A DNA stretch of 64,000 nucleotides from Dehalococcoidia bacterium (GTDB lineage: Bacteria; Chloroflexota; Dehalococcoidia; SM23-28-2; HRBIN24): contig JANXAP010000040.1 of assembly GCA_025062275.1 (NCBI GenBank), positions 1-64,000 on the forward strand, given 5' to 3'. Below are positions 10,087 through 18,286 of the stretch, in pieces (position 1 is the first letter of the stretch; the number at the start of each line of letters is the position of its first letter). The notes under the pieces were generated by a model. It was not told the origin of the DNA and did not search any database. It worked only from the letters and a program-made list of their open reading frames with translations. A program made the translations under genes and the position numbers.

Positions 10087-12168
<2,082 letters not shown>

Positions 12169-12169
<1 letters not shown>

Positions 12170-12750
12170 TGGCGCGCACCGCCCTGCTGCTCCTCATCCT
12201 GCCCCTGCTGGCCGCCTGTGGGCTGGCCCAGGACCTGACCCACACCCCCTCGCCCGGGGGCGAGGCCGTCGGGGAGCGAACGCCACCCGCCGCCCCGACC
12301 GTGCCAGCGGGCGTCGCCCTGCCCACCCCGCCGCCAGACCTGCCGCAGGCGCGGGTCACCCGCGTGGTGGACGGTGATACCATCGAGGTGAGCATCGGTG
12401 GCCGCCGCTACACCGTCCGCTATATCGGTGTGGACACCCCCGAGTCGGTGGCGCCCGGCCAGCCGGTGGAGTGCTACGGTCGGGAGGCGTCCCGGCGCAA
12501 CCGCGAGCTGGTGGAGGGGAAGACGGTGCTCCTGGAGAAGGACGTGTCGGAGACGGACCGCTACGGGCGCCTGCTGCGCTACGTCTGGGCCGACGGCGTG
12601 ATGGTCAATGCCGTGCTGGTGGCCGAGGGCTACGCGCAGGTGGCCACCTTCCCGCCCGACGTGAAATACGTGGACCTGTTTCGACGGCTGCAGGAGGAGG
12701 CTCGGGCCAGGGGCCTGGGGCTGTGGGGGGCCTGCCCCGCGGCCCGCTAG
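12169..12750 (+). CDS. Secreted lipoprotein thermonuclease (SNase-like)
   Basis: 193 residues. A short signal peptide ends in the lipobox LLAAC, so the protein should be lipid-anchored outside the membrane. After a Pro/Thr-rich linker comes a staphylococcal-nuclease fold: RVVDGDTIEV, RYIGVDTPES and DRYGRLLRYVW supply the usual Arg/Asp/Glu active-site pattern. It would cut DNA or RNA with calcium. The start is a GTG that overlaps the ligA stop (TAGTG), so it is translationally coupled to ligA even though the nuclease acts outside the cell; a scavenging role is a guess. Confidence 0.85.
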
Positions 12751-12819: not shown

Positions 12820-13884
12820 GTGAGGCTGAACCCGCTGGACAGCCTGATGGGGATCTTCTCCCACGACATCGCCATCGACCTGGGCACAGCCAACACCCTG
12901 GTGATGGTCAGGGGCAAGGGTCTGGTCATCGAGGAGCCTTCGGTGGTGGCCATCGACCGCATCGAGCGGCGCATCATCGCCGTGGGTGCCGAGGCCAAGC
13001 GCATGGTGGGCCGCACGCCTGCCGATGTCGTGGCTGTGCGGCCCCTGAGGGACGGCGTCATTTCCGACTTCGCCGTCACCGAGAAGATGCTGCAATACTT
13101 CATCCGCACCGCCCACAACCATTCCCTGCTGCCACGGCCGCGGGTGGTGATAGGCATACCTTCGGGGGTGACGGAGGTGGAGAAGCGGGCGGTGCACGAC
13201 GCCGCCCTCAATGCCGGCGCCCGCGTCTGCTACCTCATCGAGGAGCCCATGGCGGCAGCCATCGGCGCTGGCCTGCCGGTGACGGAGCCGGGAGGCTGCA
13301 TGATCGTGGACATCGGCGGCGGCACCACCGAGGTAGCCGTCATCTCCATGGGCGGCATCGTCGTCAGCAACTCCATCCCGGTGGCCGGCGACGAGATGGA
13401 CCAGGACATCATGACCTACACGCGTCAGGTCCACAACATGCTCATCGGCGAGCGCACGGCCGAGGAAGTGAAGATCAAGATCGGCTCCGCCTACCCACTG
13501 GAAGAGGAGATGACCCTGACCATCAAGGGGCGTGACCTGGCCACGGGCCTGCCCAAGGCGGTGACCATCAGCAGCGTGGAGGTGCGCGACGCCATCGCTG
13601 CCTCCGTCAACGCCATCGTGGACGCCGTGCGCCAGACCATCGAGGCCACGCCGCCGGAGCTGGTGGCCGACATCATGAACAGGGGCATCGTCCTGGCCGG
13701 CGGAGGGGCCCTGCTGCGGGGCCTGGACAAGCGCCTGGCCCAGGAGACCAAGTTCCCCGTCTACGTCGCCGAAGACCCCCTGCGCTGCGTGGTGCGGGGC
13801 TGCGCCGAGGTGCTGGAAGAGGCCACCATCCTGCAGAAGATCCAGTCGCGGCTCAACCGACGCCGTCACCGGCCGCCGCGCTAG
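12820..13884 (+). CDS. mreB: Rod-shape determining actin-like protein MreB
   Basis: 354 residues. MreB is a bacterial actin that forms membrane-bound filaments and guides the elongation machinery. The phosphate-1 loop is AIDLGTANTLV, phosphate-2 is MIVDIGGGTTEVAVIS and the adenosine motif is GIVLAGGGALLRGLD. The N-terminal NPLDSLMGIFSHD may be the membrane-binding segment. GTG start with GGAGGGG upstream. It is the first gene of mreB-mreC-mreD-PBP2-rodA. Confidence 0.96.
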   Translation: MRLNPLDSLMGIFSHDIAIDLGTANTLVMVRGKGLVIEEPSVVAIDRIERRIIAVGAEAKRMVGRTPADVVAVRPLRDGVISDFAVTEKMLQYFIRTAHNHSLLPRPRVVIGIPSGVTEVEKRAVHDAALNAGARVCYLIEEPMAAAIGAGLPVTEPGGCMIVDIGGGTTEVAVISMGGIVVSNSIPVAGDEMDQDIMTYTRQVHNMLIGERTAEEVKIKIGSAYPLEEEMTLTIKGRDLATGLPKAVTISSVEVRDAIAASVNAIVDAVRQTIEATPPELVADIMNRGIVLAGGGALLRGLDKRLAQETKFPVYVAEDPLRCVVRGCAEVLEEATILQKIQSRLNRRRHRPPR

Positions 13885-13908: not shown

Positions 13909-14775
13909 ATGGAGGGCCCCAGCTTTCAGCCCGAGCCCGGGCCCCTGTTGAGATGGGCCTTGTGGCTGGTGGGGACGTTGGCCCTGGCCATCGCCTCCAT
14001 GTCCCTGTCGCAGGCGGGGGCCCTGGACTCCCTGCGCTCCCTGGCCGTGCAGGCGGCCGCCCCCGCCACCCTGGCCCTGCGCGGCGCCGCCCTGGACGCC
14101 TCCGACCTGGTGCGGTCGCTCCTCCGCCGCGACCAGGTGCTCGAGGAGAACGAGGCCCTGCGCCGCGAGGTAGAGGAGCTGCGGGCGGAGCTGGCCCGCC
14201 GCCAGGATGCCAGCCAGCGCCTGGCCGAGCTGGAGCGACTGCTACAGCTCAAGTCCTCCCGCCCCCAGGACGGCCTCCTGGGAGCGCGGGTGGTGGCGCT
14301 GGAACTCGGGCCGCTGCGCCAGGCTGTGGCCATCGACCGTGGCAGCGACGACGGCCTGAGGGAAGGGATGCTGGTCCTCTCGGAGGGGGGAAGCCTGGTG
14401 GGCACCATCACCACCCTGTATCCCGACCATGCCTGGGTGACACTGGTCACCGATCCCCGCTCAGCTGTCAACGTGACGGTGCAGGGTGGGCAGGGCGATG
14501 CCCGCGGGGTAGTGGTAGGGCGGGCGGGGTCGCCCCCGTCCCTGGAGCTGGTGCCCCGCGAGGCCGGCATCGAGGACGGCGACCTGGTGGTCACCTCGGG
14601 CCTCGGAGGGAAGTTTCCTCCCGGCCTTCTGGTGGGCGTGGCCCGCTCGGTGCGTGCTCACCCCCAGGACACCTTCGTGCGTGCCCAGGTGGAGCCTTCG
14701 GCGCCCCTTTCGCGCCTGCAGGCGGTTCTAGTGCTGACCACCTTTCAGCCTATCCGGTTAGGGGAGCCATCATGA
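13909..14775 (+). CDS. mreC: Rod-shape determining protein MreC
   Basis: 288 residues. One N-terminal membrane helix (about residues 15-35) is followed by a coiled coil (residues 75-110, rich in Glu/Arg/Leu, EENEALRREVEELRAELARR) and a periplasmic beta-rich domain with repeated GxxVG segments. MreC links MreB to the PBP2/RodA synthase and is thought to activate PBP2. Its end overlaps the mreD ATG (ATGA). All parts look intact, which matters because the PBP2 it should activate looks dead. Confidence 0.92.
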   Translation: MEGPSFQPEPGPLLRWALWLVGTLALAIASMSLSQAGALDSLRSLAVQAAAPATLALRGAALDASDLVRSLLRRDQVLEENEALRREVEELRAELARRQDASQRLAELERLLQLKSSRPQDGLLGARVVALELGPLRQAVAIDRGSDDGLREGMLVLSEGGSLVGTITTLYPDHAWVTLVTDPRSAVNVTVQGGQGDARGVVVGRAGSPPSLELVPREAGIEDGDLVVTSGLGGKFPPGLLVGVARSVRAHPQDTFVRAQVEPSAPLSRLQAVLVLTTFQPIRLGEPS

Positions 14776-15284
14776 GGTATGCCCTCGGCGCCCTGATGGC
14801 CCTGGCAACAGCCCTGCTGGCCTACAGCGTCCTGCCCTCGGTGCGGCCCCTGGGGGTGCAGCCCGACCTGGCGCTGCTGCTGGCCGTCTGCTGGGCCGTG
14901 GCCTGGTCGCCGGGGGAAGGACTGCTGCTGGCCATCGTCGCTGGAACCCTGTCGGACCTGCTGGGGACGCGGCCCGTGGGGCTTTCGGCGCTGGGAGCCC
15001 TGCCGGCGCTGGCCCTGGCCGCCCTGGGCCAGGCGACGGTGGTGCAGGCGTCTCTCCCCACTGCCCTGGTGGCGGTGGGCCTGGGCACCCTGGCCCAGCA
15101 CATCCTGTACCTGATGGTCTACACCATCACGGGAGAGGGACCGTCCTGGGGCGACGCGCTGCTGCGGGGCGCTCTGCCCGCCGCCCTGGTCAACGCCCTG
15201 TGGACTCCCCTGGTGCTGGTGCTCTTGTGGGGGCTGAGGGCGCTCCTCGGGCCCAGGATGGCAGGCCCCCGACTGGGAGAGTGA
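14772..15284 (+). CDS. mreD: Rod-shape determining protein MreD
   Basis: 170 residues, almost wholly hydrophobic, with about five or six membrane segments and the family-like VQPDLALLLAVCWAVAWSPGEG stretch, of which VQPDLALLL is the clearest mark. MreD is an integral membrane partner of MreC. ATG at 14772 overlaps the mreC stop as ATGA, and a few bases separate its end from the PBP2 gene. The identification leans on both hydropathy and position. Confidence 0.88.
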   Translation: MRYALGALMALATALLAYSVLPSVRPLGVQPDLALLLAVCWAVAWSPGEGLLLAIVAGTLSDLLGTRPVGLSALGALPALALAALGQATVVQASLPTALVAVGLGTLAQHILYLMVYTITGEGPSWGDALLRGALPAALVNALWTPLVLVLLWGLRALLGPRMAGPRLGE

Positions 15285-15287
15285 GAA

Positions 15288-17174
15288 GTGGCCACCACTA
15301 CCCGTCGCTGGCGTTCGCCTCGGCCCAGGCGCCGCGAGCAACCGGCGCCGGCTGCCAGCCGCTGGGGCTTCCTCGCCCTTCGTGGGCTGGCCCTGCTGCT
15401 GATGGCCATCCTGGTGGGGCAACTGGTGCGGTTGCAACTGGTGGAGGGGGAGCGCTTTCGTCAGATGGCCGCCAGCAACGCGCTGCGCGAGCTGCAGGTG
15501 CCGGTGAGCCGGGGCCTGATATATGACCGCGGCGGCCGGCCCCTGGTATACAACCGCACCACTTTCGACGCCGCCATCGTCCCGGCCAACGTGCGGCCGG
15601 AGCAGCAGGAGAGGCTCTTCCGTGAGCTGGGGAGCATCGTCGGCCTTCCGCCCGAGGAGATCGAGGCCCGCTTTCGGGAGGGCCGTACCCGCCAGAGCCC
15701 TTACGACCCTCTGGTAGTGAAAGAGGGTCTGACCCGGGAGCAGGCCCTCGCCCTGAAGGAGCGGGAGCCTGACCTGCCAGGCGTCCGTCTGCTGGAGCGG
15801 ACGGTTCGCGATTACGTTGGGGGGCCGGCCCTGGCCCACGTGCTGGGCTATACCGGGCCTATATCAGCCGAGGAGCTGGAAGCTCTGAAGGGGCTGGGCT
15901 ACCACCTGCACGACTGGGTGGGCAAGGCAGGGGTGGAGGCCACCTACGAGACCATCCTGAGGGGCACCCCGGGGCAGGTGCTGCTGGAGGTGGACGCCTT
16001 CGGCCGCCCCCGCCGCATCGTCGCTGAGCAGCCGGGGCAGGACGGCTCCAGCCTCCTGCTGACGGTGGACCTGGACCTGCAGCGCCGCCTCTACGAGGCC
16101 CTCAGCGCCCAGGTGCCCCCCGGAGAGGTGGCAGCAGCCGCCCTGATGGACGTGCGCAACGGAGAGGTCCTGGCCCTGGTCTCCCTGCCCAGCTTCGACC
16201 CCAACGTTTTCGCCGACCCCGGCCGTCGCGATCTGGCGGCCGCCCTCCTGGACGCCCCGGGCAAGCCCCTCCTGAACCACGCCCTGGGGGAGCTATATCC
16301 TCCCCTGGACACCTTCAAGCCCATCGTGGCCCTGGCCGCCCTGCAGGAGGGGATCGTCCGCCCTGAGACCGTCATCCGCAATCTGGCCGGCTACATGCTG
16401 GTGAGCAACCCCCTGGCGCCGGGGGCGGTGCCAGACATCATCTTCGACCCCCGCCCCCTGGGGGACATGGACCTGGCACGGGCCCTGGCCCAGGGGGCCA
16501 ACACCTACTTCGCTCAGCTGGCGGGAGGCTCCCCCGATGGCTCCGTGCGCGGCCTGGGGGAGGAGCGACTGGCCCGCTACGCCCGCGCCTTCGGACTGGG
16601 GGAGGCCACGGGCATCGACCTGTCAGGGGAGGCGGCAGGCCTCGTGCCCGACGCCCGCTGGAAGGAGCGGACGCTGCGCGACCCCTGGCGGCCCACCGAC
16701 ACCTATCGCTTTGGCCTGGGCCAGTCCTATCTGTCGGCCACCCCCATGCAGGTGCTGGTGTCCACCGCTGCCCTGGCCAACGGCGGCCGCCTCCTGCGTC
16801 CCCACCTGGTGAGGGAGATCCGCGACCCCGAAGGGCGGGTCTTGGCCGAGGCCGGAGGCCAGCCCCGCGCCGGCCTGCCGGTCTCGCCGGAGAACCTGAG
16901 CGCCGTCCGCCAGGCCATGGTCAGGGCCGTCAGCGAGGGGGTGGCCAGGGCAGCGGCGGTGCGCGGCCTGCAAGTGGCGGGGGTGAGCGGCGCCGGCGAG
17001 GACGGCCACGCCTGGTTCGCCGGCTTCGCCCCTGCCGATCAGCCCCTGGTGGCGGTGGTGGTCTACATGGCCCGTGGCAGCGCCGACAGGCCGGCCGCGG
17101 TGGCCGCCCAGGTACTGGACTTCATGTTCAACCAGAGCGGCATCGCCCAGGCGTTGCGGGAGGGGAGACGTTGA
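15288..17174 (+). CDS. Penicillin-binding protein 2-like, predicted catalytically inactive
   Basis: 628 residues with the architecture of the elongation transpeptidase PBP2: a cytoplasmic basic tail, one membrane helix (about residues 28-50), a dimerisation domain (SRGLIYDRGGRPL) and a transpeptidase domain. All three catalytic motifs are altered. SxxK is DTFK (D341 replaces the nucleophile Ser, K344 kept), SxN is GAN (403-405) and KTG is VSG (566-568). The frame is open throughout and the surrounding fold is conserved, so this looks like a maintained pseudoenzyme and not a decayed gene. PBP2 normally cross-links peptidoglycan and stimulates RodA; only the second role could remain. GTG start. 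Confidence 0.88.
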   Translation: MATTTRRWRSPRPRRREQPAPAASRWGFLALRGLALLLMAILVGQLVRLQLVEGERFRQMAASNALRELQVPVSRGLIYDRGGRPLVYNRTTFDAAIVPANVRPEQQERLFRELGSIVGLPPEEIEARFREGRTRQSPYDPLVVKEGLTREQALALKEREPDLPGVRLLERTVRDYVGGPALAHVLGYTGPISAEELEALKGLGYHLHDWVGKAGVEATYETILRGTPGQVLLEVDAFGRPRRIVAEQPGQDGSSLLLTVDLDLQRRLYEALSAQVPPGEVAAAALMDVRNGEVLALVSLPSFDPNVFADPGRRDLAAALLDAPGKPLLNHALGELYPPLDTFKPIVALAALQEGIVRPETVIRNLAGYMLVSNPLAPGAVPDIIFDPRPLGDMDLARALAQGANTYFAQLAGGSPDGSVRGLGEERLARYARAFGLGEATGIDLSGEAAGLVPDARWKERTLRDPWRPTDTYRFGLGQSYLSATPMQVLVSTAALANGGRLLRPHLVREIRDPEGRVLAEAGGQPRAGLPVSPENLSAVRQAMVRAVSEGVARAAAVRGLQVAGVSGAGEDGHAWFAGFAPADQPLVAVVVYMARGSADRPAAVAAQVLDFMFNQSGIAQALREGRR

Positions 17175-18286
17175 TCCAGGAGCGGCTGGCCCGCCACTTC
17201 GACCCGGTGCTGGCGGCGGGGGCCATTGCCCTGGCCGGCTACGGCGGCCTGCTCATCTACAGCGCTTCCCTCAGCTCCTATCCCGACGGCATCAACGGCC
17301 TGGGCCACCCGGTGGTGAAGCAGGCGCTGCTCGCCCTGCTGGGCATCGCCCTCATGGTCGTGCTGATGATGACCGACTACCGGGCCTTCGGGCGGGTGGC
17401 GCCTTTCCTCTACGGGCTGGGGCTGCTGCTCCTGGTGGCTGTGCTGCTGGTGGGCGATGAGTCCCTGGGGTCGCGACGCTGGCTGAGCCTGGGGCCGGTG
17501 CAGGTGCAGGCGTCGGAGCTGGCCAAGCCCTTCACCATCCTGGCCCTGGCCCGCTACATGGCCGACCGTCCCCTGGATATGCGCCGCCTGCGCCACTTCC
17601 TGGCCACCCTGGCTATGGGGCTGGTGCCGGCGGTGCTGGTGATGCTGGAGCCGGACATGGGCACGGCCATCATCTTCGGCTCCGTTTGGCTGGTGATGGC
17701 CCTCATGGGCGGGGCACGGCCCTACTACGTGGGGCTGCTGGTGGCCATCCTCATCCTTTCCATTCCCCTGGTCTCGGCAGCCGCCCTCAGCGATTACCAG
17801 CGGGAGCGGCTGGCCCTCTTCTTCAACCCCAACCTGGACCCGCTGGGGGGCGGCTTCAACATCCTGCAGGCCGAGATAGGCATCGGCTCCGGCGGCCTGC
17901 TGGGGAAGGGGCTGTTCCAGGGCAGTCAGACGCAGCTGGACTTCCTGCAGACGGCCACCACCGACTACATCTTCAGCGTGCTGGGGGAAGAGCTGGGCTT
18001 CGTAGGGGCGCTGCTGCTGCTGGCCCTGTACGTGGTGGTGATTTTCCGCTGTCTGCGGGCGGCCAGCCTGTCCTACGACCTGTTCGGGCGCCTGCTGGCC
18101 ACCGGCATCGCCGTCATGCTGCTGGTGCAGGTGTTCATCAACGTCGGGGTCAACGTGCGGCTGTTGCCGGTGACGGGCATCCCGTTGCCCTTCATCTCGC
18201 AGGGAGGCAGCTCCCTGCTGATGACGTTCATGGCCCTGGGGCTGGTGCAGAGCGTGCTGCTGCGCCGGCGCCCCTTCGAGCCTTAG
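17171..18286 (+). CDS. rodA: Rod-shape SEDS glycosyltransferase RodA
   Basis: 371 residues with about ten membrane helices. RodA polymerises lipid II into glycan strands. The SEDS signatures are readable: LEPDMGTAIIFGSVW, the loop NPNLDPLGGGFNILQAEIGI, and TTDYIFSVLGEELGFVG, whose Asp (D265) matches the essential Asp of the family. The end PLPFISQGGSSLL is also typical. So the glycosyltransferase appears intact although its PBP2 partner does not. TTG start overlapping the PBP2 stop (TTGA). Its last bases overlap the convergent radA stop. Confidence 0.93.
   Translation: MIQERLARHFDPVLAAGAIALAGYGGLLIYSASLSSYPDGINGLGHPVVKQALLALLGIALMVVLMMTDYRAFGRVAPFLYGLGLLLLVAVLLVGDESLGSRRWLSLGPVQVQASELAKPFTILALARYMADRPLDMRRLRHFLATLAMGLVPAVLVMLEPDMGTAIIFGSVWLVMALMGGARPYYVGLLVAILILSIPLVSAAALSDYQRERLALFFNPNLDPLGGGFNILQAEIGIGSGGLLGKGLFQGSQTQLDFLQTATTDYIFSVLGEELGFVGALLLLALYVVVIFRCLRAASLSYDLFGRLLATGIAVMLLVQVFINVGVNVRLLPVTGIPLPFISQGGSSLLMTFMALGLVQSVLLRRRPFEP

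Follow-up and report, generated by a model that had tools for sequence, protein, structure and literature searches.

Loss of the transpeptidase motifs from the rod-operon PBP2 in a family of Dehalococcoidia

Class B penicillin-binding proteins (bPBPs) require the nucleophile Ser, SxN and KTG to cross-link peptidoglycan, and in the elongasome RodA and PBP2 are usually taken to form a tightly coupled polymerase-transpeptidase. The bPBPs also activate their SEDS partners (PMC6207328), and the bPBP pedestal both activates the SEDS partner and binds MreC (PMC6207328, PMC10257715). In E. coli, a toxic futile cycle sets in when mecillinam blocks PBP2 (PMC6207328), and the transpeptidase-deficient PBP2 S330A serves as a negative control in complementation (PMC10257715).

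Engineered dead bPBPs are already known. B. subtilis PBP2B S309A, a laboratory mutant of the divisome, supports division provided that the PBP2a relative PBP3 is active (PMC5656894). Catalysis by the SEDS-partner bPBP is likewise partly dispensable in C. difficile SpoVD S311A, where the SEDS partner is needed; this mutant is also engineered, acts at the sporulation septum and is compensated without a need for PBP3 catalysis (PMC12713402). By contrast, the loss described here arose in nature, extends over a family and concerns the elongasome, and our search of the open-access literature, with most subscription journals outside its scope, turned up no previous description of a PBP2 that is dead by nature.

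The rod-operon PBP2 and its active site

The window, a stretch of 64,000 nucleotides from a Dehalococcoidia bacterium (assembly GCA_025062275.1, contig JANXAP010000040.1), carries a complete rod operon, mreB-mreC-mreD-PBP2-rodA (Table 1). Relatives have the same order, which bears out the normal mreD-PBP2-rodA arrangement given in an earlier note on this DNA. From mreC through rodA the genes overlap or nearly touch, the TTG start of rodA and the stop of PBP2 share four bases (TTGA), and operon and overlap are both kept. MreB is 95% identical in HRbin24, a separately assembled genome of the same genus. Between a ligA-like gene (10127-12169) and mreB lies a staphylococcal-nuclease homologue (12169-12750; PF00565) with a lipobox-like start.

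Table 1 Features of the rod operon in the window
Feature	Position	Strand	Basis
mreB	12820..13884	+	PF06723 / NF010539
mreC	13909..14775	+	PF04085 / TIGR00219
mreD	14772..15284	+	PF04093 just over cut-off; matched at same place in relatives; overlaps mreC end
Putative pseudo-PBP2: membrane anchor, pedestal, degenerate transpeptidase domain	15288..17174	+	TIGR03423, PF03717, PF00905; motif loss
Pedestal (PBP_dimer) domain of PBP2, residues 71-242	15498..16013	+	0/22 conserved pedestal positions changed in family
DTFK where SxxK expected (D341; Lys344 kept)	16308..16319	+	motif alignment
GAN where SxN expected (G403; N405 kept)	16494..16502	+	motif alignment
VSG where KTG expected (V566); following loop shortened by ~10 residues relative to intact relatives	16983..16991	+	motif alignment
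rodA, TTG start	17171..18286	+	TIGR02210 over cut-off; catalytic D265 and SELAK kept

The PBP2 frame is open, begins with GTG and encodes 628 residues. In a profile search residues 29-615 scored 479.2 bits against TIGR03423 (cut-off 455), which assigns the protein to PBP2/MrdA, and the PF03717 pedestal and PF00905 transpeptidase domains were both strong matches. The protein resembles other PBP2/MrdA members, including those of the E. coli and Thermus RodA-PBP2 structures (8TJ3, 6PL5), in domain order, operon place, RodA adjacency and fold; unlike them, it has no nucleophile Ser, no SxN Ser and no KTG Lys. The domain fold appears to be kept, as a PBP2 fold match was obtained in the PDB, and an AlphaFold model (6 sequences, pLDDT 70), which is poor at the active site, supports the overall PBP2 fold only.

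Alignment with intact PBP2s places D341 (GAC, 16308-16310) at the nucleophile, G403 (GGG, 16494-16496) at the SxN Ser and V566 (GTG, 16983-16985) at the KTG Lys. The protein therefore reads DTFK, GAN and VSG where an active class B PBP has Ser-x-x-Lys, SxN/SxD and K[ST]G, and the loss of all three motifs from an open frame, as claimed in the earlier note, is confirmed. K344, N405 and G568 are the motif residues that survive. The Thr-to-Ser change in KTG would by itself be harmless, because an intact MecA-type paralog carries KSG; however, 7-10 residues are also missing from the loop after KTG in all four family members.

Could the protein still be a weak D,D-transpeptidase that works through an unconventional site? 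The retention of Lys344 and Asn405, and of Ser-x-x-Lys in the sister genus, speaks for this, but a regular-expression search of all 628 residues found neither S-x-x-K nor [KH][ST]G, so that at the level of sequence no intact motif lies elsewhere in the protein. The shortened post-KTG loop and the finding that substitution of the Ser generally abolishes PBP activity (PMC5656894) also stand against such an enzyme, which we regard as very unlikely. We infer that the window PBP2 is a pseudo-transpeptidase and would be inactive in vivo.

An error of sequencing, assembly or alignment was also considered, the assemblies being drafts. The HRbin24 PBP2 (G001; L019/L086), however, has an open frame and is 76% identical, and it carries DTFK, GSN and VTA; all three losses are thus common to a separate assembly, two of them recur in two further genomes, and the residues flanking the first two motifs align without gaps. 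The probability of an artefact is accordingly negligible.

Distribution of the losses and a second origin

The window's family is represented in our genome collection by four genomes, all in many contigs, and the motif alignment spans about 100 rod PBP2s. In the sister genus both genomes retain Ser-x-x-Lys, read ASH at SxN and lack KTG. The SxN Ser and KTG are thus absent from 4/4 family genomes, while the nucleophile is also lost in 2/2 genomes of the window's genus; as the sister genus has both Ser and Lys, some residual activity may persist there. About 80 rod-type PBP2s from sister families, the class and the phylum have intact motifs, and PBP2 is intact in the other families of the window's order. 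One further family, f20, was suspected since its matches stopped early and proved intact.

In the PBP2 tree the family forms one clade (support 100) nested within its own order, which indicates an inherited PBP2 that changed rather than a foreign gene. Parsimony suggests that the family ancestor lost KTG and SxN and that the Ser went later, in the window's genus; alternatively, the losses could have arisen separately in the two genera.

A second clade of degenerate PBP2s was found in another order, in families f112 (four genomes) and f139 (one genome; L161, L165, L171, L243 and L246 in all). Here the first motif reads GATFQ, GAAFH, GATFH, GSIFQ or GAPFQ, and the third reads VVG, EVG or HAA in the four complete copies; the copy of genome G462, a fragment at a contig end, was left out of the third-motif comparison. 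As in the window's family, Ser or Lys and KTG have been lost, but the substitutions differ and SCN is mostly kept. Strongly supported branches set f112/f139 apart from the family of the window, and intact relatives fall between the two, so at least two losses are needed; the grouping of f112 with f139 as a single clade is weakly supported. In all three f112 loci read, the pseudo-PBP2 gene lies directly before rodA, as in the window, and a class A PBP gene with intact motifs lies upstream of it (about 0.5-2.5 kb between the genes). Unlike the window, the stretches read from f112/f139 contain no mreBCD; MreB genes are found elsewhere in these genomes.

The sequences at hand therefore point to a loss that is family-wide in two distant orders and not order-wide. 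The earlier note had spoken of a pseudo-transpeptidase elongasome should the whole lineage share the loss; the window's family fits this idea, its order does not, and a second origin lies elsewhere in the phylum.

Selection and conservation by domain

Between the window's genome (G000) and HRbin24, NG86 estimates of dN/dS were 0.25 for PBP2 (pedestal 0.23, transpeptidase 0.27), 0.11 for RodA and 0.07 for MreB, figures that are rough given the large synonymous distances between the two genomes. The PBP2 value indicates that the gene is maintained, and the protein thus combines lost catalytic motifs with purifying selection, as a pseudoenzyme does. These data bear on the possibility that PBP2 is a decaying relic in a lineage that is losing its elongasome or its wall. 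The class does have wall-less members, it contains many small genomes without any PBP2 match, the dcw cluster has been lost in Dehalococcoides and SAR202 relatives (PMC10608941), and the family has a long stem branch. Decay is nonetheless improbable: besides the low within-genus dN/dS of all three genes, the frame is open in 4/4 genomes, the pedestal positions are unchanged, and within the scope of the searches both the operon and the dcw cluster are there.

The two parts of the protein have not changed alike. Intact class-level PBP2s share 26 conserved membrane and pedestal positions, and in neither genus do both genomes differ at any of them, whereas 15 of 93 conserved transpeptidase positions are changed in the window's genus and 14 of 93 in the sister genus, clustering at the motifs (mainly 340-341, 403-404, 479-480 and 566-571). 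For the window's genus this contrast gives a Fisher p of 0.04, which is indicative only as the sequences are related. Compared with class-level outgroups, the transpeptidase domain has an identity of 0.53 in order relatives and of 0.43-0.46 in the family; that of the pedestal hardly changes (0.42 versus 0.40-0.41). The transpeptidase/pedestal identity ratio is 1.07-1.18 in the family and 1.22-1.35 in 17 intact order relatives, with no overlap. As judged from these alignments, the extra divergence of the family PBP2 is confined to the transpeptidase domain; catalytic constraint was released, and the region predicted to lie towards RodA and MreC was held.

A further possibility is a transpeptidase domain with a new or altered activity, for example with D341 and K344 in another hydrolase or in a ligand-binding sensor. 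Both residues are fixed in the two genomes of the genus, segment 330-350 is 95% identical between them compared to 78% for the domain, and the fold seems to be preserved. Yet the sister genus has Ser at this position, hence there is no common new site; the substrate-positioning SxN and KTG are gone, and a conserved helix N-terminus can be structural. We therefore consider a new activity unlikely. The pseudo-transpeptidase reading has withstood motif alignment, the hunt for motifs at other sites, the tests of selection and of conservation by domain, and comparison with the second genome of the genus.

RodA and candidate cross-linkers

The RodA encoded next to this PBP2 appears intact. Its D265, the essential Asp named in the earlier note, corresponds in the alignment to E. 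coli D262 and to the site of the Asp-to-Ala mutation in PDB 6BAS, and with SELAK at the SExxK motif and a TIGR02210 score over the cut-off it has the features of a SEDS polymerase.

Wall genes were sought by family searches and in the stretches read, with MurA, MurD, MurE, Ddl and MurJ outside scope. In the window's genome a dcw cluster encodes MurB, MurC and another Mur ligase, MurG, MraY, FtsW and an FtsI that is intact, and there is one class A PBP with intact motifs. The genome also encodes a MecA/PBP3-type class B PBP (PF05223, 47 bits) with intact GSTFK, SCN and KSG and an N-terminal lipobox-like LTAC; sister families whose PBP2 is intact have this protein equally, so it does not follow the pattern of loss. 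A wall-less cell is ruled out by the dcw cluster with these genes and by the three intact PBPs, and L,D-transpeptidases are ruled out as substitute cross-linkers, none having been found in any of the four family genomes. The unusual wall without PBP2 cross-linking that the earlier note offered as one explanation is not needed, given the three other PBPs.

Its other suggestion, that PBP2 is a scaffold or activator of RodA, agrees with the conserved membrane and pedestal positions, the coupled intact RodA and the same pairing in the second origin. We consider it likely that this PBP2 is a pseudoenzyme retained to bind and activate RodA and to dock MreC, with cross-links supplied by another transpeptidase; its one remaining role is probably to hold RodA and turn it on. 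D,D-transpeptidase activity would have been lost and the gene retained, with the membrane helix and pedestal binding RodA, activating it allosterically and docking MreC. RodA would still polymerise glycan along the MreB track, and its strands would be cross-linked most likely by the putative lipoprotein of MecA/PBP3 type or by a class A PBP. Both RodA activation and the identity of the cross-linking PBP are inferred here: the MecA-type protein is favoured because of the B. subtilis PBP2B/PBP3 precedent, and a class A PBP because of the f112 gene order. In B. subtilis, too, a non-catalytic class B PBP keeps a structural role in a cell with a PBP2a-like class B PBP whose site is intact, although compensation by the MecA-type protein is putative here.

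The E. coli data on S330A and mecillinam count against this model. In that species a transpeptidase-dead PBP2 fails; what sets the two cases apart must be the helper transpeptidase, and the model requires an efficient cross-linker acting in trans. For the two origins taken together, it is reasonably probable that these are natural uncoupled elongasomes, in which PBP2 has on two or more occasions become a dedicated, non-catalytic RodA activator while RodA's strands are cross-linked in trans by another PBP. A natural family that has dropped the transpeptidase half and retained everything else would allow the activator role of PBP2 to be cleanly separated from catalysis. That a curated HMM score (TIGR03423) calls a catalytically dead-looking enzyme functional also bears on genome-based statements about walls and beta-lactam targets.

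Several further features of f112 were observed. Four class A PBPs (L230, L231, L233 and L235, from G462, G378, G413 and G441) have degenerate transpeptidase motifs (e.g. TGILT, GLA, HSA) but a normal alignment in the single glycosyltransferase segment that was compared, which suggests further pseudo-transpeptidases in this family. In one genome the divisome transpeptidase looks dead too, an FtsI-like PBP (L211; G462:C155:1048-1986) reading GSLFR, SSE and AEG. The G413 RodA (L203:10219-11319), beside a pseudo-PBP2, has SQVAM at SExxK, where the other two f112 RodAs read have SEFAK. Just upstream of the pseudo-PBP2 gene, at L203:6904-8265 and at the corresponding position of L202 and L204, lies a gene for an uncharacterised, possibly coiled-coil protein, which shows weak, sub-threshold similarity to EzrA.
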